Source: Polytrichum commune (taxonomy: Eukaryota > Streptophyta > Polytrichopsida > Polytrichales > Polytrichaceae). From it: a DNA stretch of 64,000 nt. The notes under the pieces are model-generated. The model was given only the letters and a program-made list of their open reading frames with translations. It was not told the origin of the DNA and made no database searches. The translations under genes and the position numbers were made by a program. This document shows positions 4,621-26,925 of this stretch, piece after piece. The stretch covers positions 2,234,001-2,298,000 of the forward strand of contig OX485803.1 of the NCBI GenBank assembly GCA_950295325.1, read 5' to 3'. Every line of letters begins with the position of its first letter. Within the stretch, counting starts at the first letter, position 1.

Positions 4621-4654
4621 GCCGCATATTATATGTTTTCTTTGACGCGCATTG

Positions 4655-5035: not shown

Positions 5036-5360
5036 ACTTTCCTTTTCAAAACACTTCTTTGCAATATGAAATTCTTCTTTGTTGAATTACATGTGTTTTG
5101 TTTTATGCATTATGAGCTTTGGCATGTTTTGTATGAATTAGGACTTTCCTCTTCATTATGAATTCAAAATCACTCAATCTGAAATTTTGTTGTGATTCCA
5201 TATTGCACTTTGTGTTTCATCATTCTGATCAAGAGTTGCAGGCAGAAATCCAACCCATGTTGATCGCAACATTCATAAACCCATACATACGTATTCGTAT
5301 GTATACATATACGTATATATACGGACAAAGCATTTATTATCATACCCACACATGACCACA

Positions 5361-5762
5361 TTTACGAACGATCGTTCGTAAATGTGGCGTGTATACATCT
5401 AATACACCAACCCCTCTACTTTTACGAACGTGCATTCGTAAAATACGCACTCACCCTATACATTTGCGAACGTGCGTTCGTAATTGACTAAATAAGGAAC
5501 ATCACGTAATTGCGAACGTCCGTTCGTAAATACACAGTAATCACACATCAATATCCTAAATTTACGAACGGTCGTTCGTAAACAGGGATGCAAACATACA
5601 CAGGATTTACGAACACGCGTTCGTAAATCCACAAAGAGGCATGGACATAAATATGTACATCCAATAACTAATAAAAAATTATTCTCAAAAACGATCTCCG
5701 TACCTTTTGATTGCACCATATGAACATCAAAGCAACCAGAAATACGAACGCGCGTTCGTAAA
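5361..5762. repeat. Array 2 of ACGAACG-NN-CGTTCGT palindromes in the leader intron of gene A
   Basis: Seven palindromes at about 5361, 5421, 5462, 5509, 5561, 5605 and 5742, with centres AT, TG, TG, TC, GT, CG and CG. The half-sites are kept while the centre varies. They lie between a putative leader exon and the splice acceptor TTGCAG that directly precedes the gene A start codon. Confidence 0.85.
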
Positions 5763-5791
5763 TGCCATTCTGAAAGTGTCTTATATTGCAG

Positions 5792-7087
5792 ATGGCTAGA
5801 CCAGGCAGGAGCGCAATAGAGATGTTCGCAGTACAGTTGGATCGCCTTCCGGAGTCAGTGACAGATGACAATGGCAACAACAACTACGTCCCCAAAGATG
5901 ACTTCATTGGGGAGTGGACGGCGCTCCCCGAGAAAAGTGATGGCAGTTTGTTTGTCCTTAGGTTCACATACGAGTTGGAGACAAGGCCATACCAGCCTGA
6001 GCAGTGGGTGCAGATGAAGACCTGGGGGATAGAGTCTATAGAGGCACAGGGTGATTTTGTCATTTTGGAAATGAAGAACAAAAAAGACAACATCAACCTC
6101 CTGCTGGACTTCAGGAGGCACCCTTTCTCCCATACATACGCACAGAATAATATTGTAGAGGATGCAAAGCATTTTGACCTGAATAACCTCTTCACGAAGT
6201 ACAGCCTCAGCCAGCATTGGACTGCCAGGAAGCTCACTGCACTGGCCCTGAACATTTCCAAGTATAACAGTGTCGTCGCTGAGGCTAACAAGAAGAAAAA
6301 GAGTCCAAAAAAACCTACTGCATCCGGAGCAGGAGGTTCCAGAAGTGCGCCGCGGCCAGTGCCAACAGGTAGCAGATTGACAGAAGGGCCAAGCAGACAC
6401 TCCACGCCATCTAAAAGAACTAGGGATGACATGGAGAAGTCTGGTGTAACGGAGACCGCGGAGGTCAACTCGCCGCCTGTCATGCCGATTCCTTTGAAAA
6501 AGGGAGAAAACCCTGATGTTGCAAAGGCGACTCGTATCCTTCGAGACTTCAACAATTACTCGAAGGATTGCTGGCCCATGGGACGGCACTTCACCTTCAA
6601 CGTGGACTGCTTCAGATGCGAGAAATCCCCGAACAAGTGGGTGGTGAGGTCACGTGAAAGCGGGGGTGTGAAGTGGCAAATAAATAACTTGATGAACAAT
6701 GTGAAGTGGGATAGGCAAACTGTGTGTGTTATGCCAAAAGGTTTCACTTCCCGTCCCACGGAAAATGATTGGGCACGAATCCAGAACGGGGAGTTCTGGA
6801 TTATTGATGGACAACACAGCTTGGAGGCCTCGCAGATCATTCTAAAGGACGATAACTTCCAGCATGAGCTCAAGGGGGACCTACGCTACTGGAAAGCGTT
6901 CATGGTCTGGTCTGACGACTGGGACAAGCTCCGGAAAATCTCGACATTTCTGAATTCCGGAAATAAAATCAAGGCGTTTGAAGCGTCGTGGGCAGCGAAC
7001 ATAGTGGCTGCGAGAGACGTGTGGGTTGCACATGGGTGCCCACCAAAGGAGAGGGAGAATGCGAAAAACCAGTCTCCACAATGGAAG
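5792..7087 (+). CDS. Gene A exon 1: ParB/DGQH-like domain
   Basis: The exon starts at the ATG right after a TTGCAG acceptor and ends at AAG|GTGAGT. Residues 1-165 form an unfamiliar N-terminal domain, then a basic linker (NKKKKSPKKP) and a Ser/Pro-rich stretch. The second half carries the motif FWIIDGQHSLEAS near residue 335, followed by an Asn-Ser-Gly-Asn-Lys segment about 55 residues later. A DGxH motif followed by an Asn-rich helix is typical of the ParB/sulfiredoxin fold and of DGQHR-domain proteins such as DndB. In those families the motif belongs to a nucleotide-binding or DNA-acting pocket. Function here is inferred. No stops occur in this exon. Confidence 0.65.
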
Positions 7088-7206
7088 GTGAGTTTACGAA
7101 CGAGCGTTCGTAATTCTCATGTTCATTTTCAACATTCTTCATCATTATATTTACGAACGTGCGTTCGTATTTAGATGCCCACTGACATTATTTTCTTCTA
7201 ATGCAT

Positions 7207-8532
7207 GCGTTTTGCAATGCGATGGTAGATAAATTCTCTTCCATCGACATGAAGTCCACGTCAACGAAGTCGGTGCTCGAGCTGAAGGGTGAGCTCCGCC
7301 TTATTTGTTGCAACATAGACACCTGGGATTTGTGGACCCAGTTTTTTGATGCTCACAGTGTGGGGGATCTCGTCAACCCCGACACTGAAGAAAAATATAA
7401 CAAGGAGAAGACTGGGGAAGCCCCTCCGCTGCTGAGGGAATTTTTTAGGCCACTTCAGGGGTTGACGGAGTCCGAATTGCAGAGATGTGCAGTGCATGCT
7501 CTTGGGAACACCGTCGGGAGAACAATCCCCTACCCGAAGATTTTTTTGAAGAGGCCAAAGCACAGGCCCGGAACGTACTCCATCAAGGAGTGGTGCGAGC
7601 ATCGCAAATTGAAGACTAACGCAATGAGGGAGTTGGGCGCACTCGTCCCGGAGTACAAACTCTTCCAGGCCGACGGAGACATCAACTAGGCTGGATGGAA
7701 AGAGTTCAAGGTCGCGTACAACATCAACGGCTCTTCCATGCGTAGTCTAGTTAAGGAACACGCCTCCGTCTTGAAACTCAAAGGGAACAAGCGGACCAAG
7801 AAAACAGAGACAGATCCCCAGGAGGTGGAGTTGTATATAAATTTTTTGGAGAGGAAGCGGAGGGCCACATTCGAGGGAGTGGCCAGATTTTGTTTGGTAA
7901 CCACCGGGCTGGAGAGGACCACTTTTTCTAAGTGAGACGGCACCGTCAGCAAGGCCGAGGTGAGGGAGGACTGCAGGGGTTGCCCATTTGCCCTGATTGA
8001 TTTCAGGGGGATCCCAGGAGGTGCGAGGCAAGGGGGAAAGGATTTGCCCTTCTATAACCCTTTCATGGCAAAGTTTCAAGACTACGAATCGCCTACCATG
8101 AGGGAGCCTCACGTATGGCTTTGGATAGTGGAACAAGAGAAGCTATCCGTTGTGACGGAGCTGTACGAAAATACTATCAAGTTTGAATACAGCATCTACC
8201 ACAGCACCTACGTGCCCGCAAAAACAGAAGGGATCGTGGCCATCAACGAGGCCAGGGGCAATAAGCAGGTGGGAGCTATCAGCCTGATCTTCTTGACATA
8301 CAATGCACTCAGGCATGGGAGAGCGCCTGTGAAGACAAACAATACTTTCAAGAAGATATACAGCATTCCTCACCCCCCTCCCAAGGAACTGTTGCAGGAG
8401 ACACTGTACACTATTTTCCCCGCGTTGGAGCTCAGGTTGGAGTTCTACGTGTCAGTGTTGTAGAGCTTGGCAATCAGTGGAGAGACTGTCTACAACATCT
8501 TTGGAGGCAGCAAGTTCATGTACGCGGCCATG
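7207..8532 (+). pseudogene. Gene A exon 2: DNA-methylase-like domain with three stops
   Basis: The frame is continuous apart from stops at 7687, 7933 and 8461. Near the end it reads GETVYNIFGGSK followed by an Ala/Leu-rich helix and a hydrophobic strand; this fits motif I (SAM-binding) of N4/N6 DNA methylases lying at the C-terminal side, as in beta-class enzymes. Upstream, FALIDFRGIPG sits about where a catalytic (D/S)PP(Y/W/F) loop is expected, but it lacks the PP pair, so activity is doubtful even in an intact copy. The exon ends at ATG|GTAAGC. The intron that follows holds two palindromes (about 8549 and 8635). Confidence 0.6.
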
Positions 8533-8684
8533 GTAAGCTCTCCTTCGAATTACGAACGCTCGTTCGTAATGTTCATTGAGTTAGATGTTAATAGTTGCCA
8601 ATGTTTTTCTGTGGGTTGATCTTCATGTTTATGTTTACGAACGCGCGTTCGTATATGCTGACATGATTGCAATCGTTGCTACAG

Positions 8685-10145
8685 ATGCTGGGGTTGTGTG
8701 TGAATAGCTACATTGACGCCCAGGACGAGGAGGAATACCATGTCCACAGGGTGAAGGCTTCCACAATGGACCTACACGACATGGGTGTACCCAGGGAGGA
8801 CTTCAGCATGCCCGTCGACAAAGGCATGCCGGGCATGGAGACAGACGATGACGAGCCTGCCCCTTCCGTGGACGTAGACGTGGACGCCATCCTGCAGTCC
8901 TTCAACATCGCTCCTTTACGGATGTTGGCGCCAACGGGTCATCCTTCTGACCCCCAAGGAACACCGGGGGGCTATACAGGATCGTCGGCTGGGACCACCC
9001 AGGATGTCGTCCCCGCTAGAGTGTCGGGTGCGGAACCCTTCGGCACGCCTGGAGGCTACTTGACTTCAGTATCTCCAAGGCCCGTCGTCGTTCCGAAGAT
9101 GGAGACCCTCGACCTCCTCGACCAACGCTCGCGTCCATCCTTGGACCTCTTCCGGAACACGAGGAGGAGGATGAAGAAGACGCCGTACGTGGAGTTGCCT
9201 GAGGGAGCAATCATCGAGGTGTCGGACGAAGACGAGGGGGACATGGACATCATGACGGAGCTGGGGGTCGATTACGACAAGAACAAGCGGGTGAAGGAGG
9301 AGGCGCTGACTGTTGCCGAGCTGAATGCCAAGCTAGAGCAAAAAATGAAGGAAGAAATGGCGGCTGCGGCAGAGGAGAGTGCAAGAAATATGGCCCGCAT
9401 GCAGGAGGCACTGCGGGAGTCCGCAGCAAAGACGGACGCCATATTTGAGATGCTCAAAAATATGCAGAGCTTCTCGGCGCCAGCACAACAGCTTTACCCC
9501 TTCCCCGGAGGATACCCCTCCCATTCCCCCCCTCCAGGCCTGTTCCCCGGAGGACCTTCGCACCCACCAGCACCACACCCAACGCCAGCTGGGAGTCCTA
9601 TTCCCCCTGAAATGACTGCCACCCCCGTCAAGTCCCACGATGCGATAAGGGCTACCATACGCGAGGACGAAGATTTACGAACGCGCGTTCGTGAATCTTC
9701 AGGTCCGGCAGTCCTAACCCCTCCCCCTCCAAGGGTAGGACTGGCCTCAGTCACTGACACCGCCTCTTTGACAGTCGTCCCGAGGGTAGTGGATAGGCAG
9801 GGCGATGAATCTGCGCAACACACTGACATGGTCATTGTGGAGGAAACGCAGGGGAGCCCCAATGACGTGGCAGCTGTCCAAGGAATGGACGTTGAGAGCC
9901 CTGACCTAGGACGACATCCATCCGCGGAGATGGAGGATGTCCACATGGACACTCTCGACCTGGGCGGAGACGACGACGACGACGCGGACGACATTGTGCA
10001 GACCCAGGCGTCACAGTCGGAGCGTGCCACAGATGCCATGGAGACAGAGGCGGCTGGCCCAATGGGGATTACGAACGCGCGTTCGTTAAACGAAGAGGAG
10101 GGAACTGCTCGGTCCAGCGCCGTTGCCCCTCCCCCCTATGACGAG
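8685..10145 (+). CDS. Gene A exon 3: acidic, coiled-coil and Pro-rich region
   Basis: The exon runs from ACAG|ATGCTGGGG to GACGAG|GTAACT, 487 codons without a stop. It holds acidic patches (DDDEP; a run of Asp near 9970), a predicted coiled coil around 9310-9460 (AELNAKLEQKMKEEM) and a Pro/Gly/Ser-rich segment. Two palindromes are translated: at about 9674 they give DLRTRVRES and at about 10,069 TNARS. Both are kept at the same sites in gene B. No enzyme domain was recognised here; it looks like a linker or interaction region. Confidence 0.6.
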
Positions 10146-10708
10146 GTAACTCTCCTCTGAGAATACCACTCATTTGACTAACGCGCGTTCGTAACCACTA
10201 ACCCATGCGCGTTGTGTTCTTGGCGGTTCCTGTCCATCAGCATCACGAGGCGTGCGAGGACCCTTCTCTACGTGGACCCTAGGCCCGATAAATTTTGTAG
10301 AACACGGCATGTATTTGCCATAGGAAACTGTGAAAAATTATCACGTGAGACAATTGTAAATATTCACCGAATTAATATATGGGCAGATGATCTCTGCGTC
10401 GCATCTCCCAAGCTTATTGTATCATATCGCATCTTGTATTATGTATGTTCATGCGCCTCATTACACTTTCACACCCACCTCATTAACGAGCGCCCGTTCG
10501 CAAAAGGGTGCGACCATCTGTCCACCTCCTTCACGAACGAGCGTTCGTAAATGGTGCGCCACCCCAGCCTTCATTCACGAACGCTCGTTCGCAAGTCTGC
10601 ACTTGACCACATTCTCCTTGCACTATTTTCCTCGCATAATCGTCTTTTCCTTAATGCAATGTTATTTATTGGATCATAGAATTAAACTAGTCGAGTTGTT
10701 AATCACAG

Positions 10709-11476
10709 GATCCCCCGGAGATAGGTCGGAAACCCTCGACCAGTGGACGTCTTACCCGAAACAAACCGTTCGTCGTGTTCGACCTGAACAGGGTGTTGTG
10801 TCACACCGAACACATCCCCCGGGTCCCCACGCGTCCCTTCCGTCACCCCGACGAAAGGGACTACGACGGAGAGCTCGACACGCTCATTAACCGCAAGGCT
10901 GTCCGCGCCCGTCCCGGCCTGCGTGACTTCCTTCAAGAGGTGCTCGATGTAGCTCACGTCATTGTGTGGAGCTCCATGGTCATGGAGAACACCGAGCCAA
11001 TCGTCGACTTCCTCTTCCGCGATCTTCCGAGCCCTTGCCTCATCCTCGGCCAAGAGGATTGCGATGAATTGCTTGACGAAAAGGGTATGCCGGTTCCAAA
11101 GTTCGGCGGTCGTGGCGGAGGACAACAATTCCTCAAGGTCCTGAGGTCAAGACTGTGGCGGGGCATCCCCCGGCTGCAGGGGGTACCCCACGGGTGGTGG
11201 CCGACCCCCGAGAACACCGTCCTCGTCGACGACAACCCCACCAAAAGCGTCTTGAACCCCCCGGAGAACGTCATCTTCCCCGCCACTTGGACCGGCGATA
11301 GGAACGACACGTTTTTGGTCGATACGCTAGCGCCTTACCTTAGAAGGCTTGTTGTCCACGCCAGTAGCATACCATTTTTTGTTAGGTCCAACCCCATAGG
11401 CAATGTGGGTTTAAGCCCCCGTGATAATGTATTCAAGAGCATCATGAGGCTCGCCAAACTCAATAAATTGATTTGA
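10709..11476 (+). CDS. Gene A exon 4: FCP1/NIF-like HAD phosphatase domain
   Basis: The exon starts after ATCACAG and is in phase with exon 3. Motifs in order are FVVFDLNRVLCH (HAD motif I), VIVWSSM (motif II), a central Gly-rich insert, and TVLVDDNPTKS (motif III/IV). This order fits the NLI-interacting-factor/FCP1 family, which dephosphorylates proteins such as the RNA polymerase II tail. The second Asp of the usual DxDx(T/V) is Asn here (DLN), as in gene B and some plant HAD-like proteins, so phosphatase chemistry may be weak or altered. Read alone it would be about 255 residues; whether it is a separate gene or the C-terminal part of gene A depends on the splice at 10,145/10,709. Confidence 0.7.
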   Translation, partial: DPPEIGRKPSTSGRLTRNKPFVVFDLNRVLCHTEHIPRVPTRPFRHPDERDYDGELDTLINRKAVRARPGLRDFLQEVLDVAHVIVWSSMVMENTEPIVDFLFRDLPSPCLILGQEDCDELLDEKGMPVPKFGGRGGGQQFLKVLRSRLWRGIPRLQGVPHGWWPTPENTVLVDDNPTKSVLNPPENVIFPATWTGDRNDTFLVDTLAPYLRRLVVHASSIPFFVRSNPIGNVGLSPRDNVFKSIMRLAKLNKLI

Positions 11477-11588
11477 AATGCCTCCATGTCTTTGCTTTGT
11501 ATCATGTGGTTCACATTTACTAATGCTTGCTTCGTTTTTGGATGTCTTTTGTTGTTGTGATTGTTGTGGTGTTTATTCTTGCCTATAG

Positions 11589-12565
11589 TCTGCCCCCATA
11601 TGCGACGCCTCTGTGGTTGACGGCCCTTCCCGTCCCCTCTCGCCCCCTGCCTCCCCTTCCCGCGACGTCACGGACTTCCAAATGCCATCCCTCTACCAGT
11701 TCTCGGCGGTCGACGCGGCCTCGGCCGTGGATTACTCCCGCGACGACGGCGTCGTCAACAGCCCGCCCCCACCACTTGTCCCCCGCACGTACGCCCCGTC
11801 GCCCTCCCCCCTCTCCAAGGAGAAACGGACGCTCGTTCGTTTGGGACACCTCTCGCCCTCGAGGGACGACGCCGTCGCTCGTCGCGGGCCGAGCCGGCGT
11901 CTCCGCATGGAAGGCCCCCGTTGCCACACCTCCCCCGCCGACTCCGTTCCTCCCCCCGCAATGTCCTCCGCGATCGTGGGCCCTCCACGCCTCGACTCCC
12001 CCCCGCCATCCAACATAATTGCAATAGTTCCATTGGCTCCGAATGCTCCCGTCGACGCCCCCCTCGTTCCCACCGTTCCCCGCATGGACGTCCCCAAAGC
12101 CAAGGTGCCCTCCTCAACCCTAAACCCCTTTCCCGCTTTTGCTTTCCTTGTCTTCCGTGTGCGTGCCGTTCTCTTTACGAGCGCCCATCTCAAACCGCCC
12201 TCAGTATTTTCCCCACTCCATTCCTATTCTTATCTTCCTATGACGTTGTTTCGCAGGTGGCTACCCGCTCGCTTGGTGCCCGGCCCTCATCCACGTCCTC
12301 CTTGGATAGGCACGCCCTCAAGGCCGCATCTTCCGAGTCCGATCGTTGTCTGGCCCTCCGGAGAAGCGCAAGACGTTCCCTTTCGCAAACACCCTCGTAT
12401 TCTACTTATAATACCACCTCGTACAATTCAGGAGCGCGTCCTGAAACATGCAAGAACGATACATATTCCTATCCAGGCAACACACAAGGATTCAGTCGTG
12501 GGCCTGAGATTTTTAGAGCCATGGAGGCCGCCAAAAAAAAGGACTTAGCCGCAAAAAAAAAATAG
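11589..12565 (+). CDS. Possible further exons of gene A: Pro/Ser-rich tail with Lys-rich end
   Basis: After a TATAG acceptor at 11,588 an open frame runs to about 12,105 (Pro/Ser-rich, MPSLYQFSAVDAAS), and after a TTCGCAG acceptor near 12,256 a second frame runs to a stop at 12,565, ending in AAKKKDLAAKKK. GC content and codon style match exon 4. The donor that would connect it to exon 4 is unclear (the best in-phase site is a weak GTTAGG at 11,381). A degenerate palindrome (ACGGACGCTCGTTCGT) is translated near 11,827. Gene B is cut off by an LTR before this part, so it cannot be compared. Confidence 0.35.
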
Positions 12566-12914
12566 TGGGTCGGACTAGTGTGACTAGAAGCGTACTAGTG
12601 GGACGGACTCCCTAAATGGGCTTAGGTGTAGAACATATTTAAGTGCTTACTTTCTATGCTATTCCAAGTTATTCAAGACATTGATGGTATTTCCATTATA
12701 ATTGTATTTCAATCCCAATTAATTCATTCAACTTCCATTCATTCTTCGCATCTTCCCTTCCATTCATAACGAGTTGTCATTTCATACGCAACTATTTTCA
12801 TGTATGCCTCACATTTTTGTTCACTTTCATGCCTTTATGTATAATAATAGTAGCATACCATTATACATATGGGATTTTTAGTCGTCATTACTGGTCCAAT
12901 TTTGAAATGTGCAT
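12566..12914. other. AT-rich stretch without gene between gene A and the Mutator-like element
   Basis: No open frame with support. It is the left flank of the element starting at 12,925. Confidence 0.5.
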
Positions 12915-12924
12915 CCTTATATAG

Positions 12925-12990
12925 GACGACACTTGTATGTGAGCGTAGAGCGGAGAGCGGAGATTTGGAGAGCGGAGAGCGTAGAGGAAA
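12925..12990 (+). repeat. Left terminal inverted repeat of the Mutator-like element
   Basis: Matches, inverted, the sequence at about 27,865-27,913: GTGAGCGTAGAGCGGA plus a TTGGAGAGCGG block. The left copy has an extra GCGGAGA unit. Confidence 0.55.
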
Positions 12991-13517
12991 TAAAAATAGT
13001 AAACTTGTCAGACTAAAATTAGGATATTTCAAAATAGCCAAGAATGTACCAAGAATATTCTAGAATATGACAATAATAGTAAAAAAATTGGACCTATTTC
13101 CGTAGGATGTATAGGTCATAAAATAAAATAAAAACCCTGAATTTGAAATGGTCTCATTAAGTTTGGAAACCGTGAGGTGGTTGAATTATTAAAACCAAGG
13201 ATGACTACAAGAAAAAATCAATGAAAATGGATTTTTTGAGATTGGTATAATTGAATAATGAGTCAATCAAAATACAAAGGAATCAAAATAATAAATTTGC
13301 TTCGACCGGGTCCACCTCCCTCGCAATCATCTAAGAAGTATGCAAAACGGAAATAGAGTTGATAGACATAGGAAGCATTGTAATACAAAATTTTGAAGCA
13401 AATAAAAATAATCATTGAGATTATACCTTTATTATATCAATCAATTATTGCTTCACAAGAGGTCCAGAAATGGACACATATATCATAGCCCAATGTATTG
13501 CTAGGCTGAGAGGAATT

Positions 13518-16500
13518 CTAAGAAGTAGACTTTGTCAAAAGACCCCCTTCGAGGATGAGTTTGATCTCATTGAAGCTAAATGTCGGGGCGTGAATGAACA
13601 AATTCACTTCCGCATCCAAATTAGAAACCTTGATGAAAATGTAATACAAATGCTTACAATTCAGATAAGAATTTCGTTTGCGGCTGTACTTGGAAATCAT
13701 ATCCAAGAAGTATGCGCAGTTGCACTCTGGAAGAGAACTGACTGTCACTTGGTAGATCGGTGGTTGGGGTTCTGATTTGGACTGCAGTGTGATAATGCAA
13801 CCAAATCCCGGTTGAGGGATCATAGTTAACTTCAGAACGGTACCATGCATAGCTTCAGCAGAGGCCACCATCTGCCTCTGCTTTGCCGAAGGTGCGCTGC
13901 TGGATCGCCGAACAAGCTTGGACAATCTTGTCGGAGGGATCATGTCGGGGCTTTCTGGAACACGGATTCCAGACATATCCAGCGGGGGAGCAGAGTTGGT
14001 GAAGAGTTGAGTCGGTGTGATGTACTCCTTTGGTGGGAGTTGAAAACCTGCGTTCTCAAGGGCGAAGATCTCCGAGCGGGTGAGGTTGGTACCAATCTTC
14101 ACAGGCCAGATTGGGGGAATAGGAGGCTTCTGGTCATCAGCAGAGAACGGCATGACCCATTTCCGACGAGGGCCCTTCACGCAACGCTCAATGTCGTCTG
14201 GGCAAAAGACAAAGTCCGTGCGCTTCATAGATTGGAGTTTGTAATGATGCCACATACCGGTGTAGGTCGGCGCAAGGACGCTCTTATTATTAGTGACGAT
14301 TCTTGCGATGCACTTCTTCTTCGTGCCCGCATGATTAGCCCAACAAGACTTCCCAGACGTATAGGGTATACGGGCAATATGCCAAAGAGAGACGTCTACT
14401 TTGGTTTCTTGCACGGCAGTGACACGCTGGAAACCAAGTCCTGCAGGTGAAGGCACTTGAACCTCTTGTACAGAGGGGGAAGACTCCTCAATGATAGTGG
14501 GTAGTGTTTCTGGTTGAGATCGAGTGACACGCTTACCGGGGGGAGGGCGAGAGAAGTTTACGGTATCGGGGCGGTGGGTCTCGCCATCATCACCAATTGG
14601 AGTGTCTGGTCTTCGCTTCTGCGATCCAAACACCTCGGCGCCCTCAAGGTGTGGATCGCGAGTGCAAAATTCTTCCCCACCGGACATGTCAAGCAAGACC
14701 TTCTGCAACACTGTGGGGTCGCCAGTACGCTGAGCTCGACGTTGAGCACCCCTGAGCTTTAGTTCTTCTTTGCTTGGACCATCTCCGCCAATTCCACCTT
14801 TAAGGAACTGGTAGTATGCAACAACTTGTAAGAAGGCGCGAATGTAGTCGTCAACCGTAGCCACGTATAGATCTCCACCCTTGTTGCCGGAGGCTTGAAG
14901 CCACTTGTTGTGGACGGACTCCGCAAGATTGCACGACGGCATCTCGGCCAATTGGTCTTGGGTTAAAACCTTTTCCTGATTGGAGAAATCAAGTATTAAT
15001 ATAAATGTACAGAGAGAGGAAATCGAATCCAAGAAAAACCAATAATGAATTATGAAGGAGATGTACCAGTTCCATGAAACCACCCCATTGAAGGTAGCGG
15101 AAGTGCCAAAAAGCAAGCCAGAGCTGAAGATGCTTGAGACCGTCCTCACTTGTACAATTCGATGACGCCCACCAAGCCTTGATAGCTAGGTACCTAGTCT
15201 CAGCCTCTTCCATAGATGACGCATTTCGATATTGAAGGCAAAGATGTCTATGTTGGTCTTGTAACTCATGCTTTATATACGATTTCGTATGTTTTTCGAG
15301 TGATTGTTTCCAATGGAAAAAACAAGTGCGCTCACGACCCTCCATTGGAACTTTGGGATCCCCTGAACCGTACACAATGCGAACAGCGTTCCAATTGGCT
15401 TGGGCACTGTCCGCCATGAAGCCTATAAAGTTTGGATGTGGGATACCGTGTCGGGCCATGACGTGGTTGAGGTTCTGCCAGAAGAGAACTTGGGCATCCT
15501 TATCCTCCGATTGGAAATCACAACATGAAATGGTCATGACCCGTTGATAAGTCCCATCGTACACATGAGCGGCCATGGTGGTCCACCCTTTGACCCGCTT
15601 CACGTGATCGGACATCATCCACGCGTTCTCCAGGTCCCCACCCGGTTGCATCCGACGAACCAAATCCACTCCACTTCCAGGACCAACCTCCGACATCTTG
15701 AAGACGAACACCTTGTCTGTATCGTCACCTTGTCCTGGGAATTGGTTCCGTTGGACGTAGGCCCAATTGCTAACACCTCGGAGCTTTGCGATGCCATCCA
15801 TAACACCAAACCTCCGCAAATATTTGAAAGAGGTAACCTTAGAGCGAAGGTTTGGGGAATTCAACTCTCTACAGCTCTCAAAAACAGGTTCAAGCTCTTT
15901 TAAAGAGAAGAGACGGTGTGTGTCATTATCGCCAGAAAGGAGAAACTCACCAACAATGTCCTTGCTAGCTTCAAGGACAATCTTGCTGTGGGTGGCTTGA
16001 GGCGTACGTTCAACGTGCTCCTCAAGAAGTGCATTGATACGCTTCCGACTGTCTCTGCAGTCTCCAACCTTCACTGGATGTTGATGAGAACCGAGATGAA
16101 TGCAGACTCTTTGGGATGACTCCTTCCCATGGACGTAGAAGATTTTGGCCTCACATAGTGCAATGCATTTGGGAGGCTCTTTACAGATCCTGCAGACAAG
16201 AGTAGATCCGGATGGCACAATGCCAGAGAGAGGGAAAGGATCTTTAGTGAAACCTTCAAATTCTGTGTCATTGACCTTAGAGGTACGATGGGCGCGTTGA
16301 AGGTAATCACAACTCAGGTTTTGGCATTGGAGATGGCCAACACAGGTAGAGGAACGAAATGCAAGGCCAACGTCGTTTGTAATGTTGGTGGTTTGAGTCT
16401 TAGTCCAAACATGGCCATCATATTGCTTGTCCATGCCGTCCAACGACTTGGCCCTGGTTTGAGATGAAGAGACTTCTGCTGCAGGGAGGACAAATAACTG

Positions 16501-17190
16501 GGTGCCATCGAAACGAGGGGGAAGGTGATTAACTTCTTGGATTTTGATTTTATCGTAATCTATTTTCTTGAGGACGTTCTTACTACCGGGCATAGAGCCA
16601 AGATGACGAAGACATTGAACAATAGTTTGAGGAGGTTTAGATGTAGGGACCGAAGGAGTTGAAGGGACAGAGCTAGATGGAGAAGGCGTTACGTAAGATG
16701 CAAAGGGAAACAAATGAGGGAAATCATGGACAGCAGCCTTATGCACTGGTACATCTTCACTCGAAGAATCAGACAAGTCTATAACGTTGTCTACACCAGG
16801 CTCGGTCTTGACGCTTATTACCGGGGGTGTGCTAAAGGCAACAGTGGATGATCGAAGAGGAGGAAGGATTTCTGTTGACACTCCCATCTGAGAATCTGGC
16901 CAGCCACAAGCCCTATACTTTCCCGCGCCAAGCTCCCACACTACATTGCCATTGTCAGTTACCTTGGAGGTCTCATGGAAGGTATGAACGAGCAATCCAG
17001 TATCAGGATGGTAGATCTCACGCTCTACCCATATTGTACTAGCTTTCAAAGAGAACCTAATGCTAAGATGAAGCTCCGAGACAACAACAATACCTTGTGC
17101 ACCAATGGGGAATATAATAGGGACCCCAATGCCATGTGAACGAAGTTCGGCCATCTCAGAGACGGGAGGAAGAATTGAGGTGGAAGCCAT
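13518..17190 (-). CDS. MULE-type transposase with SWIM zinc finger
   Basis: Two exons on the minus strand, 17190-15067 and 14975-13518, join in phase 0 (donor GTACAT, acceptor AATCAG, 91-bp intron) into 1,193 residues. The start was set at MASTSILPP; an upstream in-frame ATG at 17,229 is also possible. The middle (about residues 520-690) has a DDE-like core: an Asp in HVYDGTYQRVMTI, GFMADSAQANWNAV, and a Cys/His segment FFHWKQSLEKH. Near the C-terminus CNCAYF...CKH gives the CxCx(n)CxH SWIM zinc finger usual in MULE/FAR1-type proteins. The N-terminal third is Ser/Pro-rich. No stops or shifts were seen, so it may be intact. It is divergent from the gene at 17,510. Confidence 0.8.
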
Positions 17191-17509
17191 GAAGGCAGAG
17201 AAAGCAAACGTGAAGGAACAAAGATGCAAAGATGCATAGAGAAGGAGAATGGTGATAACGATGAAGTTATAAACAAATACGCATGAATATCAGGAAGGAG
17301 ACAAAACTGTCAGGCATCCTAAAAAAAGATACCCCTAATTACAAAGATGGTTGTCAGATAGTAAAGCGCGCCTCCCATCGGGAGGTATTGCAATTATATA
17401 CTGAGAAGAATGCGATTGCTCACTTTCTTTCCAATGTGTGAGTTTGATGTGGTGAGGTTGTGGAAAGGAAATAGAGCGAATAGGTCTGAATTGCGGGAGG
17501 GTTGAACAC

Positions 17510-18457
17510 ATGAAGGAAATAGGCAATTCACAACCTCCGACAACGGAACCATCTAAGAAAAAGAAGAGGAGGCGATCGTCTACACATTACACTGATAAGA
17601 AGAGAAAGACAGTGAGGACACAAAAGTCACAGGCAAGGAAAGCGCCAATCGAGGGCCGTGGGACGCCCGAGGATTTGAGCCAAAGCATAAAGGACCTGCG
17701 GAAACCTTCATGGAGGCTAGACTGTGGGATTCGGCCTTTTCATTTATCACCGATTGTAGAAGAGGCGGACGGAAGTAAAGCGCAACCAATGGCAGAAGTG
17801 GAGGAGTTGGGAAACGACAGCATCCAAGAGGACTCACGCGAAGAGACAAACTCTACAAGTGTCGTACGTATTCTTCGGGTTCTCCATATATTCAGTTGTT
17901 TGAGCACATAATGAAAATGGTAGAACATATTCAACTGTGAAACAACTTTTCTTTTAGATATTATGGTTTGTCATCATTGTTATAAACATTGTTTTATCTT
18001 AAATATAGGAAGTGGGGGGAGTGGAGATAGTGGAAATATCTACGAAGAAGACAACAAGGAGGTAGCACAACAAATTGAGAAGGCGTTAGAAGAGCGAGAA
18101 CCGATGTCGGGACAACCAACGATTCAAGCAAGAGAAAAAATGAAGGCGTCCAAGAGGAAAGCGGCAAAGGAAGATCTGAAATCAAATTTGTTGGGAGGCC
18201 GCGAAAGAGCTGAAGGAGGAGACCCATGCGCAGAAACCCTAAGTGTGGATGTTGTGACCCCTGCTTCAAGATTTATGCGAAGCAAGGCGGGCGGAACACA
18301 ACAAACATCAAGGCGAGGGCGTGGCCGTGGGAGAGGAATGGCGCAAGTAAACCTCGGAGATTCGAGAAGCACTCCAATATCGCCGACAGAGGACAGGACC
18401 TCGGAAGATAGTGGCGCCAATATAGGGGCTTCAGTGGAGGGCATACTCCAAATTCTG
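17510..18457 (+). CDS. Low-complexity basic/acidic exons, possible 5' part of gene C
   Basis: An ATG at 17,510 opens a Lys/Arg-rich frame (KKKKRRRSS) ending near 17,858; after an ATATAG acceptor (18,008) a second frame continues to CTG|GTAAGG at 18,457 and includes RRGRGRGRG. A phase-1 junction works if GTGTCG at 17,859 is used as donor. The second exon ends in phase 0 and would splice in frame to the acceptor TTCTTAG at 23,932, which directly precedes gene C's ATG. If so, the whole palindrome array is in one intron of gene C. Composition suggests a disordered nuclear tail. The exact exon borders are uncertain. Confidence 0.35.
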
Positions 18458-18586
18458 GTAAGGTGTCGGGATCTCGGCCAAGCTATGTTCGCCAACGTTT
18501 TTGCTTTCTATCACCTTGATTTCTCATAGTATTTGGAATATCAGCTTGACTTGCTTTCGGCCTTGTCTTGATTTGGGTTTAGGAAC

Positions 18587-19430
18587 ATGTCAGGAAAGGT
18601 ATGTTTGTGCTTGAAAAATCAAAAGGTTATGTGCACATCATGTTGCTCTCGGCCTTGTCTCGTTTTGTGTAGTGCACAAGAACGAGCTAGGGGAAGAGGC
18701 CTCGGATCCGAGACCTCATATTTGTGTAAGTTTGAGTATGTGAAAGGTAGGGTTTTGAGAGAGGCGAGGTTCTTGATTTCTCAAACTAATGGAATGTCGA
18801 CTTTCTTGCTTTCTTGATTCCTTGCTCTCGGCCATTTCTTCTATTGTGTAGTGCATAAGTGGGAGCCATAGGAAGAGGCCTCGGATCCGAGGCCTCTTAT
18901 TTGTGGGTAGGTTTGTGCTTGAGAAATCAAAATGTTATGTGCACATCAATTGCTCTCGGCCTTGGCTCGTTTTGTGTAGTGCACAAGAACGAGCTAGGGG
19001 AAGAGGTCTCGGATCCGAGGCCTCTTATTTGTGTAAGTTTGAGTATGTGAGAGGTAGGGTTTTGAGAGAGGTGAGGTTCTTGATTTCTCAAACTAATGGA
19101 ATGTCAACTTTCTTGCTTTCTTGATTCCTTGCTCTCGGCCATTTCTTCTATTGTGTAGTGCATAAGTGGGAGCCATAGGAAGAGGCCTCGGATCCGAGGC
19201 CTCTTATTTGTGGGTAGGTTTGTGCTTGAGAAATCAAAATGTTATGTGCACATCAATTGCTCTCGGCCTTGGCTCGTTTTGTGTAGTGCACAAGAACGAG
19301 CTAGGGGAAGAGGCCTCGGATCCGAGGCCTCTTATTTGTGTAAGTTTGAGTATGTGAGAGGTAGGGTTTTGAGAGAGGTGAGGTTCTTGATTTCTCAAAC
19401 TAATGGAATGTCAACTTTCTTCCATTTTTG
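18587..19430. repeat. 307-bp tandem units each with two GGCCTCGGATCCGAGGCC palindromes
   Basis: Units repeat with a 307-bp period (for example near 18,859 and 19,166) and are nearly identical. Each holds two copies of the palindrome. They begin with text resembling splice signals and a TTGTGTAGTGCACAAG-type box. Confidence 0.75.
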
Positions 19431-19444
19431 ATTCCTTGCTCTCT

Positions 19445-19500
19445 GCCTTGTGCCCCACAGGCGAACGCCCGTGGGCCATGTAACAAGTAACTTGGTTAGG
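19445..19500. repeat. Hairpin CCACNGGCGAACNCCCGTGG, copy 1
   Basis: An inverted repeat with a short loop (GCCCCACAGGCGAACGCCC then GTGGGCC) followed by ATGTAACAAGTAACTTGG. Two relatives occur at 22,625-22,690 and 23,020-23,065 with a better-paired stem (CCACGGGTGAACACCCGTGG). Confidence 0.6.
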
Positions 19501-20814
19501 CATGTCTTTATGAGGCACTTTGGTTGGTTCTGAGTATGTAAACTAGTTTGTGTGTGAGGCCTCGGATCCGAGGCCTCTCGGCCGAGGCCACTTGAGGTTT
19601 TTTGATTCAAAGTATAACTTGTATGAATGAGGCACTTTGCTTGTTTTTGAGGATGTAAACTAGTTTGTGAATGAGGCCTCGGATCCGAGGCCTCTTTTAT
19701 GTGTTCCAAAACAAGTCTACGGATGAGGCACTTTGGTTTGTTTTGAGTATGCAAACTAGTTTGTGAATGAGGCCTCGGATCCGAGGCCTCTTTTATGTGT
19801 TCCAAAACAAGTGTACAGATGAGGCACTTTGGTTTGTTTTGAGTATGTAAACTAGTTTGTGAATGAGGCCTCGGATCCGAGGCCTCTTTTATGTGTTCCA
19901 AAACAAGTGTACAGATGAGGCACTTTGGTTGGTTTTGAGTATGTAAACTAGTTTGTGTGTAAGGCCTCGGATCCGAGGCCTCTCGGCCGAGGCCAATTGA
20001 GGTTTTTTGATTCAAAGTATAACTTGTATGAATGAGGCACTTTGCTTGTTTTGAGGATGTAAACTAGTTTGTGAATGAGGCCTCGGATCCGAGGCCTCTT
20101 TTATGTGTTCCAAAACAAGTGTACGGATGAGGCACTTTGGTTTGTTTTGAGTATGCAAACTAGTTTGTGAATGAGGCCTCGGATCCGAGGCCTCTTTTAT
20201 GTGTTCCAAAACAAGTGTACAGATGAGGCACTTTGGTTTGTTTTGAGTATGTAAACTAGTTTGTGTGTAAGGCCTCGGATCCGAGGCCTCTCGGCCGAGG
20301 CCAATTGAGGTTTTTTGATTCAAAGTATAACTTGTATGAATGAGGCACTTTGCTTGTTTTGAGGATGTAAACTAGTTTGTGAATGAGGCCTCGGATCCGA
20401 GGCCTCTTTTATGTGTTCCAAAACAAGTGTACGGATGAGGCACTTTGCTTTGTTTTGAGTATGCAAACTAGTTTGTGAATGAGGCCTCGGATCCGAGGCC
20501 TCTTTTATGTGTTCCAAAACAAGTGTACAGATGAGGCACTTTGGTTTGTTTTGAGTATGTAAACTAGTTTGTGAATGAGGCCTCGGATCCGAGGCCTCTT
20601 TTATGTGTTCCAAAGCAAGTGTACAGATGAGGCACTTTGGTTGGTTTTGAGTATGTAAACTAGTTTGTGTGTAAGGCCTCGGATCCGAGGCCTCTCGGCC
20701 GAGGCCACTTGAGGTTTTTTGATTCAACGTATAGCTTGTATGAATGAGGCACTTTGCTTGTTTTTGAGTATGTAAACTAGTTTGAAAATGAGGCCTCGGA
20801 TCCGAGGCCTCCTT

Positions 20815-20985
20815 GTAGTGCCCTCGATCAGCAGTCCCCAGGGAGTGGCTCCCGGGACTGCGAATGTTTAAACAGGCATAACTTCCTTGATTTCTGCCCA
20901 AATGGGGCAAGTGAGGTGTCCATCGGTATCTACATTTCACGTAGATGACGATAGAGTGGTTGATTGTTAGATTCGGAGACCACAC
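20815..20985 (+). repeat. Fragment resembling the gypsy LTR, inside the palindrome array
   Basis: Contains text matching the LTR at 42,761-43,734: the CAGCAGT...GGGAGTGNNTCCCGGGACTG block, AACAGGCATAACTTCCT, AATGGGGCAAGTGAGG, and the CGTAGATGA segment. A second copy lies at 21,304-21,465. It ends in a G run (about 21,014-21,023) shortly downstream. Confidence 0.6.
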
Positions 20986-21303
20986 GTGGAAGATATGGAG
21001 GTCTGAAGCTGCCGGGGGGGGGGGAAATGTGTTTTGTTAAGTGCATATGTAGGAGCTAGGAGAAGAGGCCTCGGATCCGAGGCCTCTTTTATGTGTTCCA
21101 AAACTAGTGTACGGATGAGGCACTATGGTTGGTTTGGAGTACGTAAATTACTTTGTGTGTGAGCCCTCGGATCCGAGGCCTCTCAGCCGAGGCCACTTGA
21201 GGTTTTTTGATTGAACGTATAGCTTGTATGAATGAGGCACTTTGCTTGTTTTTGAGTATGTACACTAGTTTGAAAATGAGGCCTCGGATCCGAGGCCTCC
21301 TTT

Positions 21304-21465
21304 TAGTGCCCTCGATCAGCAGTCCCCTGGGAGTGGCTCCCGGGACTGCGAATGTTTAAACAGGCATAACTTCCTTGATTTTTGCCCAAATGGGGCAAGT
21401 GAGGTGTCCATCGGCATCTACATTTCACGTAGATGACGATAGAGTGGTTGATTGTTAGATTCGGA
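21304..21465 (+). repeat. Second LTR-like fragment inside the palindrome array
   Basis: Nearly the same fragment as at 20,815-20,985, so it was probably amplified together with the array units rather than inserted twice. Confidence 0.6.
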
Positions 21466-22624
21466 TCCGAGGCCTCTTTTTTGTGTCAAGGTTTGTGCTT
21501 GAAAAATCAAAATGTTAGGTTCATTTTTGAATTCTCTCGGCCATTTTGTGTAGTATGTATTTCATAAGGAGGGGCATTCGGAAGAGGCCTCGGATCCGAG
21601 GCCTCATTTTTGTGTCAAGGTATGTGCATGAAAAATTAAAAATTTATGTTCATTTTTGAATGCTCTTGGCCCTCTTGTTTTGGGTAGTGCATAAGTAGGT
21701 ACTTTGTGAAGAGGCCTCGGATCCGAGGCCTCATTTTTGTGTCAAGGTATGTGCTTGAAAAATGAAAATCTTATGTTCATTTTTGAATGCTCTTGGCCTT
21801 CTTGTTTTGGGTAGTGCATAAGTAGGTACTTTGTGAAGAGGCCTCGGATCCGAGGCCTCATTTTTGTGTCAAGGTATGTGCTTGAAAAATGAAAATCTCA
21901 TGTTCATTTTTGAATGCTCTTGGCCTTCTTGTTTTGGGTAGTGCATAAGTAGGTACTTTGTGAAGAGGCCTCGGATCCGAGGCCTCATTTTTGTGTCAAG
22001 GTATGTGCTTGAAAAATGAAAATCTCATGTTCATTTTTGAATGCTCTTGGCCTTCTTGTTTTGGGTAGTGAATAAGTATGTGTTTTGGGAAGAGGCCTCG
22101 GATCCGAGGCCTCATGTTTGAGTCAATTTTATTTAAGAAAAATCAAAATGTTATGTTCGTGTAAGATTGCTCTCGGCCTTCTTGTTTTGGGTACTACATG
22201 AGTAGGAGGTTTGTGAAGAGGCCTCGGATCCGAGGCCTCTTGTTTGTGTAAGTTTGAGTATGTGAGAGGTAGGGTTTTGAGAGAGGCGAGGTTCTTGATT
22301 TCTCAAACTAATGGAATGTCAACTTTCTTGCTTTCTTGATTCCTTGCTTTCGGCCATTTCTTCTATTGGGTAGTGCATAAGTGGGAGCCATAGGAAGAGG
22401 CCTCGGATCCGAGGCCTCTTATTTGTGGGTAGGTTTGTGCTTGAAAAATCAAAATGTTATGTGCACATCAATTGTTGTCGGCCTTGTCTTGTTTTGTGTA
22501 GTGCATAAGAAGCAGCTAGGGGAAGAGGCCTCGGATCCGAGGCCTCATATTTGTGTAAGTTTGAGTATGTGAAAGGTAGGGTTTTGAGAGAGGCGAGGTT
22601 CTTGGTTAGGTTTTAACATCATCA

Positions 22625-22690
22625 AATGTGTGCCCCACGGGTGAACACCCGTGGGCCATGTAACAGGTATCTTGGGTAGGATTTAGCATC
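22625..22690. repeat. Hairpin CCACGGGTGAACACCCGTGG, copy 2
   Basis: Stem CCACGGGTG/CACCCGTGG with loop AA, followed by GCCATGTAACAGG. Same family as at 19,445 and 23,020. Confidence 0.6.
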
Positions 22691-23019
22691 ATCACGGGGA
22701 GATGTCTCCATGTCAAATATTTTTAAAAATTATGATTTTTTTTCTCTATATTCATAACCATTGATTTTATATTTTGTATATTTTTTTGAAATTTTTTGTC
22801 ATCTTCATTTTTTCTAGTAATTGTTTTAGTTGAATTCTGCGTCATTTTAGGTAGAAATTGTATGTTTTCTAGAAAAATATGGTCATCAAATTTGGTCATG
22901 ATATTTTACTCCGTAATGGATATCATGTATATCTACCTCCCAAAAACATTTGAGAAACTTTTGACCCATTTTGGTGATGCAACTTGGCAATGGAGTGACC
23001 TCCCCTGGAACATCATCAA

Positions 23020-23065
23020 ATGTGAACCTCACGGGTGAACACCCGTGAGCCATGTAACAAGTAAA
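23020..23065. repeat. Hairpin copy 3 (CTCACGGGTGAACACCCGTGAG)
   Basis: Both arms carry the same change relative to copy 2 (CCACGGG to TCACGGG and CCCGTGG to CCCGTGA), a paired difference that keeps the stem. Confidence 0.55.
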
Positions 23066-23935
23066 TTGGTTAGGTTTTAAAATCATCAAGGAGGGGCATT
23101 TGGAAGAGGCCTCGGATCCGAGGCCTCATTTTTGAGTCAGGTTGTGTGCTTGAAAAATGAAAATGTTAGGTTCATTTTTGAATTCTCTCGGCCATTTTCT
23201 GTAATATGTATTTCATAAGGAGGGGCATTCGGAAGAGGCCTCGGATCCGAGGCCTCATTTTTGTGTCAAGGTATGTGCATGAAAAGTTAAAATGTTATGT
23301 TCATTTTTGAATGCGCTTGGCCCTCTTGTTTTGGGTAGTGCATAAGTAGGTACTTTGTGAAGAGGCCTCGGATCCGAGGCCTCATTTTTGTGTCAAGGTA
23401 TGTGCTTGAAAAATGAAAATCTTATGTTCATTTTCGAATCCTCTCGGCCTTCTTGTTTTGGGTAGTGAATAAGTATGTGTTTTGGGAAGAGGCCTCGGAT
23501 CCGAGGCCTCATGTTTGTGTCAATTTTATGCTAGAAAAATCAAAATGTTATGTTCGTGTAAGATTGCTCTCGGCCTTCTTGTTTTGGGTACTACATGAGT
23601 AGGAGGTTTGTGAAGAGGCCTCGGATCCGAGGCCTCATTTTGGAGACAATGTATGTGCTTGAAAAGTCAAATTGCTATGTTCACATAAGATTTCTCTCCG
23701 CCTTTTTCTTTTGGGTAGTGCATAAGGAGGAGGTAGGAAAAGAGGCCTCGGATCCGAGGCCTCTCATTCGTAGGTAGGTTAGTGCTAGAGTTGACCACTT
23801 GACTTAGCATTCGGCCATTTGCATTTGTAGTTTGCTCTCGGCCTTGTATTGTTTTTGTGAGGATTTGTTTCTTTATAGTTACGAAGTTATTGACTTTTCT
23901 TTGTGAAATTCTCATTTTCTCCATGTTCTTAGGAT

Positions 23936-26925
23936 ATGGACTCTTCACAGGTTGCGCAATCGCAACCCCAATCTGGAGAGGATGTTGTTCTTGCGGCCCC
24001 CGCGGTTGAAGTTGAAGCTGTGCAGGTTGAGAGTCTCAATTCGCAGGGCCCATTACAAGTAGAGGTGAGTTGGATAGTTGTTGAGTAATTTGTTGAGCAA
24101 GTTTTTTGAGTTCTAGCTTTCTAAGCATGGTTTTATTGTTTGTGTTTTTGTTAGGCTCTCGCAATGAGCGAAGATGCCGTTCAAGCAGTTGCCGACACGG
24201 ATCCCGTGGTGTGTGAGCTTGAGCTTCGGAAATCACAAAAAGAGGATTCCATTGGTGTTATCCAACGCCTCCGGATTAAGCCAACCTGTAAGTCCCGCTT
24301 ATCCATTCCTTTGTGCCGCTTGAGAGCCCTCCCTCTCGTCCGTCCTATCAGTGAGGTTGAGGTGCAGCGCTTGGAATGTGAATTTGTAATGGGATACCGA
24401 GAGGGTGATCGGGTTCTTTACGTGTCTTCTTTCAACGACGTTCCCGTGGACCTCCCCATTCCCCCTGGCATTATGGCCTCCGCAGAATTTGACGCCAAGC
24501 TCAAGGAGGATCCGGATCTTGCACATTTCGCCGGGAAGATGTTCTTCGTCTGGGAAGGCAATCATTGTCTCACCGCTTGGTGGAGACACATCAATAACCA
24601 CCACGCCGATGACAAGAGTTGGCATATCTCGGTGGATTGCATTGTTGTTGACCCTAGAAGATACACCGGTGTATTCTTCAATGCTATGAGCGACATTAAT
24701 TGGTAAGCTCATTCATTTTTTTCATTCATTTTTCATTTTTGTTTCAATTATTTTCCATTCTTTTCACTTCACGTTCCTCACATATTTTCTCTCAGGTCAA
24801 CCGAGCATGATTATGTCAAGGCAAACATTCCGGCCAAGCTCCTTCGAATCCGCACTTTTGGGAGGTTAGAGTTGTCCATCTTCAAGGATCTTATATCGTC
24901 ATCTGACTACAAAGCATGCGAGAAGATAAAGGAGAGTCGCCCAACTTGGTACACCTTGACCGCGGATGTGTTCGTTAAGTTTCTTTACAAGGTATGATTT
25001 TATGCATTTAATCATTTAGAGCTTCCAACATAGATAATTTCCATGCCGATTATATGAACTCATAAGGTCATTTCTTACAGAGAGACATTTCGGCTCAAGC
25101 AGACCTTGCAGTGAGGCATTACCGTGAGACCACACCCGTTGCGGAGAGGTCGGCCACTGAGATTTGGAATGTTATAACCAAGGCCCAGGAGAGGACAATC
25201 AAAAGTATTCGGGCCCGTTCTTTTGAGAAGTACATATCCGTTGCACACCCTGACAATGGAGAGGATTTCTTTCATGAGGTACTCTTTTGAACTCAAATCA
25301 CTCTTGAACGCAATTCATCCAAATCACTCTTCAATTCTATTACTCTTTTGAACTCAAATCATTTTTATTTTGTGTACAGATTGACCGCCATTTTAATGAG
25401 TTCTCTTCGACGGACATGACAATTGAAAAATTGCAAAAAATTGTCACATGCCCGGTCGAAGCTTCGTTCAAAGCTAAGTGGCTTCACTGGTGGAACGCCT
25501 CCCTTCGTGAAAGGTTAGATAACAAGTTCCCCGTCGACAAGCCTATGAGGGAGAGGGCTTTGGACGACTGGCTACACAAGGCGTCCTTCTGGGCTCAGGT
25601 AAATCCATTCCTCGGCCTTCTTCATTTTCATTTTCCTCTATTCCATTTATCTCATATCTAATCATCTCCCTCTCTGCAGTTGGAGAAGGAAGTCGCGGTT
25701 GAAATTGAGACCTTAGAGGAGAGCTTCTCCGTCGACATTGATTGGGACGCATCAGAAATTATCTTGCGCCCTCGTGAGTACGTTGATCATTGGCGGATTG
25801 TCCTTTGGGACAAGGCCTTCAAGCCTTATCTCGGCGATAAGCCTGACATCGCCTTTGCCAAAGGTGATAATCTCTTGGAGTTCGAGGAGGGGGCTCTCGC
25901 TATCAAGCGTGTGGCCTATCGGTAATACATCTATCCTCCACTTTGCACCTCTCCTTAATGTCATTTCTTGCTCGTTTTCTTGGTTTTCTTATATTCTTGT
26001 TTTGTCATGTAGGTATATCATGAGAGAATTGGTTGTGAAGAATGCATTGGCCTCATCTTCCTTGCCGGACTACCTCTCGGACTGGGTGAATATTTTTTCT
26101 AGCCTCTGCGTGTACACGACCGCGCAAACAAACAAGTTTTCCGAATTGCACTTGCAGATGACATCTTCACCGATGAGAAGAGCCAGACGATGCGCAGTGA
26201 TGGGGTACCTTGGCGAGGTGCCCGTGAGAAGCATCCTATTTTTTTTTCCATCCTTCTCGCTACTCTCACCGACAAGAATGATGTTATTATGGACTGGCAG
26301 TGTGGTGTAGGTACGCCTTCTTTTTCAACTTCATTCTTACTTTGAATTTTCCATTATTTTTCCTTGACTAGTTTCCATACTAACATTTCGCCTCTCTTTG
26401 CTTTAGGTGGTTCGATTACAGCATGTCGCTCCCTTGAGCGGCATATTGTGGCCCTTGAGAGTGACCCCGTCATTTTCAATTCACTCCTACTCCCCATGCG
26501 CGATCCCCAGCCTGCGCGTATATCTCGCTCAGTTGCCGCACCGTCTACATCTATCTTTGATCCTCCTCAAAAGATGACCAAGAGGGCATTCGGATTCCTT
26601 TGTGCGTAAGTTTGCTTTCTATATTTTGCCATGTTTGCCTTGATTTCAAATTCTCATTTTCTAGTGTCATCATGTTTCTAATCCTTTTGCTTGGGTGTTT
26701 AGAGAGCCAGCGGAGGTCGCAGTCATTCGTCGAGACATGTTTTCAAGTCCTCCGAAGCCGTTTGAGCTTCCCCCGTATGCTAGTGCAATGGCGGATTGTT
26801 TTGCGAAGGCGGAGTCCCCATCTCCTCCTCGCGTTCGTCATTTCTCGCGTGGAACACGAAATCTTTTCTTGGTAGAAGCAAATGAGGGTGAGGAGAGTGA
26901 TAGGGAATGTTCTCCAAGCCCTTAG
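23936..26925 (+). CDS. Gene C: ParB-like protein with C-terminal DNA-methylase motif
   Basis: Ten exons splice in phase: 23936-24064, 24155-24702, 24796-24991, 25081-25278, 25380-25598, 25680-25921, 26013-26085, 26103-26310, 26407-26605, 26703-26925 (744 residues). Eight of nine introns are 81-101 bp with GT-AG ends; the one at 26,086-26,102 is only 17 nt (see findings). Near residue 176 the motif VWEGNHCLTAWW resembles the ParB GxH-type pocket. Residues about 570-625 read PWRGAREKHPIFFSILL, then DVIMDWQCGVGGSITACRSL and VALESD, the layout of the target-binding end and SAM motif I of N4/N6 DNA methylases. A catalytic DPPY-type loop was not found. It may be a degenerate methylase fold. The acceptor TTCTTAG right before the ATG suggests upstream exons. 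Confidence 0.75.

Follow-up and report, generated by a model that had tools for sequence, protein, structure and literature searches.

Genes A and C are carried by two different multicopy DNA transposons of Polytrichum commune, and each transposon family holds a private dyad of the same 10-N2-10 form that changes in concordance with the protein clade, while gene A is under purifying selection. It is rather likely that both are accessory genes of their elements, and that the dyads are sites for a protein which the element itself encodes, most likely the accessory protein acting as a dimer, with a role in anti-silencing and/or in transposition.

The window, meaning the whole stretch of 64,000 nucleotides that was analysed, contains two copies of the gene A element and one gene C element. 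The C element is inserted in A copy 1, near its right end, at a site through which an intact A element reads, and because of this nesting the A dyads vanish there. The preliminary description of this DNA recognised the palindromes; it missed the transposon nature of both loci and the insertion of one into the other. The features of the window are as follows.

1-12924, plus strand: A element copy 1, the part left of the nested C element (left end precedes the window; piecewise alignment with copy 2 and with the intact copy L025/L002/L026)
1071-2073: A dyads, upstream array of copy 1
5364-5759: A dyads, leader of gene A copy 1
5792-7087, plus strand: gene A copy 1 exon 1, DGQH motif
7096-7168: two A dyads, intron 1 of copy 1
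7207-8532, plus strand: gene A copy 1 exon 2, with three nonsense codons and without profile support for a methylase
8552-8652: two A dyads, intron 2 of copy 1
8685-10145, plus strand: exon 3 of gene A copy 1, coding for an acidic, proline-rich stretch; contains A dyads at 9677 and 10071
10177-10592: A dyads, intron 3 of copy 1
10709-11476, plus strand: gene A copy 1 exon 4, NIF/FCP-type phosphatase-like domain (Pfam NIF 1.2e-16)
12914-12924: left 11-bp target duplication TCCTTATATAG of the nested C element
12925-27912, plus strand: C element inserted into A copy 1
13518-15185, minus strand: C-element ORF with a SWIM-like CxC..CxH stretch (by eye; without Pfam match)
14989-17289, minus strand: C-element ORF, DDE-transposase-like (by eye; without Pfam match)
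17456-18457, plus strand: possible 5' exons of gene C, basic protein (ORFs and splice sites read)
18698-23761: C dyads, 37 sites
23936-26925, plus strand: gene C, nine exons, of which exon 2 carries the GNH motif and exons 7-8 a methylase-like stretch; frame change near 26106
27913-27923: right 11-bp target duplication of the C element
27938-27964, minus strand: right terminal inverted repeat of A copy 1
31813-31839, plus strand: left terminal inverted repeat of A copy 2
32213-33835, minus strand: DUF7869 ORF of A copy 2, presumed transposase (Pfam on the L025 counterpart)
34268-35686, minus strand: second left-arm ORF of A copy 2
35667-36912: A dyads, array upstream of the left-arm ORFs of copy 2
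40122-40796: A dyads, leader of gene A copy 2
40828-42123, plus strand: gene A copy 2 exon 1, one TAG
42124-56279, plus strand: remainder of gene A copy 2, broken by the ~975-bp repeat and other insertions
42760-43734, 44098-45076, 45224-46213, 51294-52282, 53617-54591 and 56279-57267: copies of the ~975-bp repeat

Some further sequences lie in and around the A copies. The ~975-bp repeat, with copies 93-99% alike, was inserted no fewer than six times within and next to A copy 2, in either orientation. A second DUF7869 ORF is found at 28277-29584, just beyond the right end of A copy 1, and 30651-31800 is ~73-75% like the interior of the A element; the interval 28277-31800 is probably a third, diverged element. 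By eye, 47444-47989 on the minus strand resembles an integrase-like retrotransposon fragment.

Gene A sits in a multicopy DNA transposon of ~16 kb with ends AACACTATATTCG. One full family A element measures 16,059 bp between its CACTA...TAGTG ends and has 32 dyads at up to two mismatches. Besides gene A, the family contains a DUF7869 gene in the left arm (Pfam 1.8e-38, run on the L025 counterpart), whose product is the presumed transposase; the literature search found no publication on DUF7869. Genome-wide, A-type ends (up to two mismatches) number 2064, against 0 in the control. Gene A exon 1 is found at no fewer than 74 loci, a count from which window copy 1, L054 and L055 are missing, and the gene A and gene C loci together are distributed over seven contigs. 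Among nine fetched end pairs lying ~16 kb apart, eight have a 4-bp target duplication outside AACACTATA...TATAGTGTT, and four enclose a gene A copy among the loci listed. The left part is missing in some copies, as in L029, which joins other DNA ~1.1 kb before the gene. Elements of the CACTA superfamily have CACTA-starting ends and a 3-bp target duplication. This label was considered for family A and, despite the CACTA letters at the ends, dropped because the target duplication is 4 bp and not 3, which fits 8 of 10 end pairs once the L002 element, without such a duplication, is included.

Both window copies of gene A have decayed, copy 1 by three nonsense codons in exon 2, and copy 2 by a stop in exon 1 and by inserted repeats; stop-free copies are present elsewhere in the genome (L002, L005, L010). 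In L002 the gene has four exons with phase-0 joins, and its reading frame stays open for 1607 codons up to the locus end; exon 1 carries the DGQH motif, exon 2 follows, exon 3 is acidic and proline-rich, and exon 4 encodes a NIF-type phosphatase. Comparison of the exons of L002, L005 and L010 gave dN/dS values of 0.05-0.25 at dS of 0.44-3.1 in 11 of 12 cases, the twelfth having a saturated dS; gene A is thus under purifying selection. The NIF/FCP profile matches exon 4 above the cut-off (Pfam 1.2e-16 and 4.5e-15). HAD phosphatases of the NIF/FCP type have a DxD catalytic pair, and since DLN replaces DxD in the copies read (L002, window copy 1 and L054), the exon-4 phosphatase is likely inactive.

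Gene C sits in a multicopy DNA transposon of 15-19 kb whose ends differ from those of family A, with 11-bp target duplications, which flank both of the copies for which both ends are in hand (TCCTTATATAG in the window and GTTCATTTGAG in L030/L031). Gene C exon 2 was found at 150 loci or more. Mutator-like elements (MULEs) have target duplications of about 9-11 bp, and that of the C element falls in this range. The MULE label was not adopted, because the MULE and SWIM likeness of the two C-element ORFs was seen by eye only and neither ORF has a Pfam match to a MULE or SWIM domain. A candidate donor after 18457 and a candidate acceptor before 23933 flank the C dyad array and would join in frame, and from these splice signals it is plausible that the array lies within an intron of gene C.

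The dyads of the window are far more numerous than expected by chance. The A dyad ACGAACGNNCGTTCGT was counted at 61 sites with up to two mismatches (0.08 expected), close to the ~58 first described, and with none between 11841 and 35666, which bears out the gap that had been placed at 12.6-35.4 kb. The C dyad GGCCTCGGATCCGAGGCC was counted at 37 sites with up to three mismatches (0.01 expected; ~36 had been claimed), all within 18698-23761. In the 408-Mb genome, exact A sites number 5602, with 4 for the reversed-pattern control, while exact sites of the 22-bp C dyad number 1917 and those of a third dyad, C', 1998, both with 0 for the control.

All three dyads have the same 22-bp, 10-N2-10 form. 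Every gene A locus examined has TTTACGAACG-NN-CGTTCGTAAA, and the gene C clades have either GAGGCCTCGG-AT-CCGAGGCCTC or ACCCTCTCGG-NN-CCGAGAGGGT, with zero cross-over in the counted loci; the half-sites TTTACGAACG, GAGGCCTCGG and ACCCTCTCGG each stand opposite their own complement over a 2-bp gap. The inner CTCGG of the half-site is common to C and C', a CpG is present in all dyads, and the spacer of the A dyad is free. For the edges of the dyads, 8 of 13 A loci, 4 of 7 C loci and 5 of 6 C' loci were used. In 81 A sites with unlike flanks, the information content is 0.8-1.9 bits within the 22 bp and falls to ~0-0.3 outside, the edges of C and C' being less clean (12 and 17 non-redundant sites, respectively). 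The C and C' dyads are arranged in tandem arrays, and that of the window has its 37 sites in repeat units of about 96-128 bp and larger. Within gene A the leader and introns 1, 2 and 3 hold dyads, and exon 3 has two, as the mention of leader, introns and even exons had suggested; both exon-3 dyads are kept in all nine loci listed (of 13 A loci), and they persist while dS is 0.67-1.0.

The CpG content of the non-coding DNA of L002 was also measured, and its observed/expected ratio rises from 0.60 to 1.32 when the dyads are included; the depletion outside the dyads is as expected if such DNA is methylated. As raw counts that include the transition bias, transitions make up 45 of 65 changes at dyad CpG positions in broken A copies, and 10 of 15 in copies that are intact or nearly so (window 5792-11476 and other A loci).

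To compare dyads with proteins, protein identity served to select 11 A and 13 C loci, the de novo palindrome search came afterwards, and with the window copies added, 27 loci were counted. Thirteen A loci have A dyads only (8-22 each), seven C loci have C dyads only (3-53 each) and six C' loci have C' dyads only (11-32 each), while L016 has a single C' site in 8.5 kb. A dyads are present in L054 and L055 as well. In a tree of 14 C-side loci, C is split from L016 plus C' with a support of 1.000. These counts and this tree uphold the earlier proposal of one distinct palindrome per gene family, differing between protein clades. Six further C-family slices of 2 kb each were inspected; L058 and L059 have C' dyads, and the slices of L056, L057, L060 and L061 contain no A, C or C' dyad, although arrays could lie outside these slices. 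An intermediate clade of gene C relatives (L016, L056, L057 and L061) is without a C or C' array in the fetched DNA. L060 has, at 1199-1414 and upstream of its gene C relative, six copies of CGAGTG-N-CACTCG in a 34-bp tandem repeat, a different palindrome that occurs in no other fetched locus.

The preliminary description had held that palindromes spread genome-wide without a link to these genes would speak against it. They are spread genome-wide, and mostly within transposons carrying these genes, apart from lone sites and one C' cluster. The first 100 A sites listed fall into four clusters on contig C1, and every cluster contains an A-type end or has one no more than 6 kb away. Among the C sites listed there are three clusters beside gene C copies and one lone site, and among the C' sites listed one cluster around a gene C relative, one cluster without a listed gene and two lone sites. 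A separate interval, G000:C5:1751760-1846160, holds a tandem cluster of light-harvesting protein genes. The light-harvesting genes, and the PDB matches of one such protein (8htu and 7xqp, both moss entries), agree with a green plant.

The sharp 22-bp edge of the 81 A sites, the survival of the exon-3 dyads and the purifying selection on gene A speak in favor of protein-binding sites that have been maintained. On this view each element would carry, in its dyads, repeated binding sites for one of its own proteins, most likely the accessory protein, which would bind as a dimer to two 10-bp half-sites around the 2-bp spacer. With dense sites near the 5' ends of element genes and in introns, such a protein would coat its own family only. 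The coating would keep the element genes transcribed against host silencing, in the manner of VANC, and/or would aid transposition, in the manner of TnpA, and protein and site would change together as clades diverge. By analogy, the dyad systems of A and C are probably anti-silencing systems. The intermediate clade around L016 without an array, and L060 with its different palindrome, count against this explanation, as do the less sharp edges of the C and C' dyads, the negative profile searches for a DNA-binding domain in A and the negative comparison of A with C.

The transposase (DUF7869 in A, the other transposase-like protein in C) or the product of the second left-arm ORF could also be the dyad binder, with genes A and C doing something else. 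The left-arm dyads adjoin the transposase-side ORFs, and co-variation with the dyads is to be expected of every gene that an element carries. Transposases usually bind element ends, however, and the dyads run through the introns and an exon of gene A without being concentrated at the ends; the first 3.8 kb of the full-length A element are free of them, and the last 2.4 kb contain one of its 32. We regard this alternative as unlikely.

The search for folds and homologs gave little support to the names first attached to the two proteins. Neither A nor C has a match to a ParB or DGQHR-domain profile in Pfam and the other profile searches, so no profile result supports the proposed ParB-like fold, and the label comes from one short G(Q/N)H motif recognised by eye. 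The methylase-like assignment fared better for one gene. A permuted methylase-like stretch of gene C matches PHROG methyltransferases (E 0.0026-0.49) and Pfam N6_N4_Mtase (0.14), all on one motif-I region, and weakly suggests a methylase relation for gene C; gene A has no methylase profile match. For A, no DNA-binding domain was found by profile. AlphaFold models gave a mean pLDDT of 32.7 for exon 1 (two window sequences) and a pLDDT of 32.1 for exon 2 (one sequence), and a PDB profile search returned no match for exon 1 and chance-level matches only for exon 2. No homology between A and C was detected by hhalign (probabilities of 0.9, 0.4 and 0.7%). Relatives of A exon 1, A exon 2 and C were absent from the viral contigs searched, as were relatives of C from the other genome contigs searched. 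In a literature search combining ParB with transposon and methyltransferase, no paper on such a system was found, as judged by title.

A more far-reaching version of the story would have two unlike transposon families independently acquire a two-part protein of one kind, a ParB-like reader linked to a methylase-like fold, with the 22-bp 10-N2-10 dyad recognised and methylation read, written or blocked. This would amount to eukaryotic self-marking with specificity switching between clades, as in C and C', and we consider it quite improbable. It is very unlikely that an active methylase, guided by the ParB-like part, methylates its own dyads to mark the element as self. The weak PHROG and Pfam matches on the motif-I region of gene C and the CpG in every dyad agree with such an enzyme, but the Pfam score of 12.5 is under the cut-off of 26.7, A has no match, and no conserved DPPY-type catalytic motif was seen by eye in either protein.

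Very little credence is given to the dyads being passive repeats, functionless palindromes spread by tandem duplication and element copying. The tandem arrays of C and C' and the inheritance of sites by element copies would be accounted for, but A sites with unlike flanks have only the 22 bp in common, the exon-3 dyads persist at the dS given above, and the 10-N2-10 form is common to three families. Hardly credible at all is an RNA-level role, in which hairpins of intronic palindromes steer splicing or small-RNA production, for although many dyads are intronic and near gene A splice sites, a 2-base loop is poor for a hairpin, the A spacer is free, and dyads also occur upstream of genes and in exon 3.

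Several known systems resemble the element-encoded dyad binding that we favor. Cytosine methyltransferases have reportedly been captured by retrotransposons in charophytes and dinoflagellates. The present case is similar in having a methylase-related gene in a transposable element, tied to silencing; unlike those retrotransposons with C5 methylases, these are DNA transposons with at best a degenerate amino-methylase-like stretch. As in bacterial ParB-parS, a dyad is repeated near the gene of its supposed binder, and a G(Q/N)H motif can be read by eye, but there is no ParB profile match for A or C, no partition context, and the setting is a transposon.

According to the excerpted text of PMC2613891, TnpA of Spm-En, a DNA-binding protein encoded by the element, recognises the element's own repeats and takes part in both transposition and regulation, and non-homologous TnpA-like proteins of CACTA elements recognise diverse repeats. 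The dyads are likewise repeats of their own element and candidate sites of an element-encoded DNA-binding protein. CACTA elements, as described there, have subterminal repeats, whereas the sites here are spread through genes; the A element also differs in its 4-bp target duplication and in having DUF7869 rather than a Pfam match to the tnp2 domain.

Element-encoded, sequence-specific anti-silencing is best known from Arabidopsis VANDAL elements, and if the same strategy is used here, it arose in a different plant, in two unlike transposon families, through other proteins and with a palindromic code of greater length. Since C and C' combine related proteins with dyads that are related yet distinct, the protein-DNA code can be tested directly on this pair, and epigenome editing could gain sequence-addressed tools from such proteins. 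The preliminary description knew of no such eukaryotic system; the VANC proteins of VANDAL elements precede it (PMC5735166). In the excerpted text of that report, VANC proteins are encoded by the element, contain DUF1985 and bind private motifs repeated in their own element. These motifs are often in tandem, occupy non-coding parts, among them accessory-gene introns and the region upstream of the transposase gene, and differ between related families; that of VANC21 is the 9-base, non-palindromic YAGTATTAY (PMC5735166). Compared with this account, DUF1985, the VANC domain, is not among the Pfam matches of A or C, the dyads occur in two unlike transposon families, and the motif is a 22-bp dyad that is also found in an exon. 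As in VANC and VANDAL, a transposon accessory gene stands together with a family-private motif repeated in the same element, which would be bound by its product. As for VANC21, the accessory gene has sites in its introns, and further sites are placed upstream of the transposase side. Together with the TnpA precedent, this VANC21-like layout points to element-encoded DNA-binding systems.
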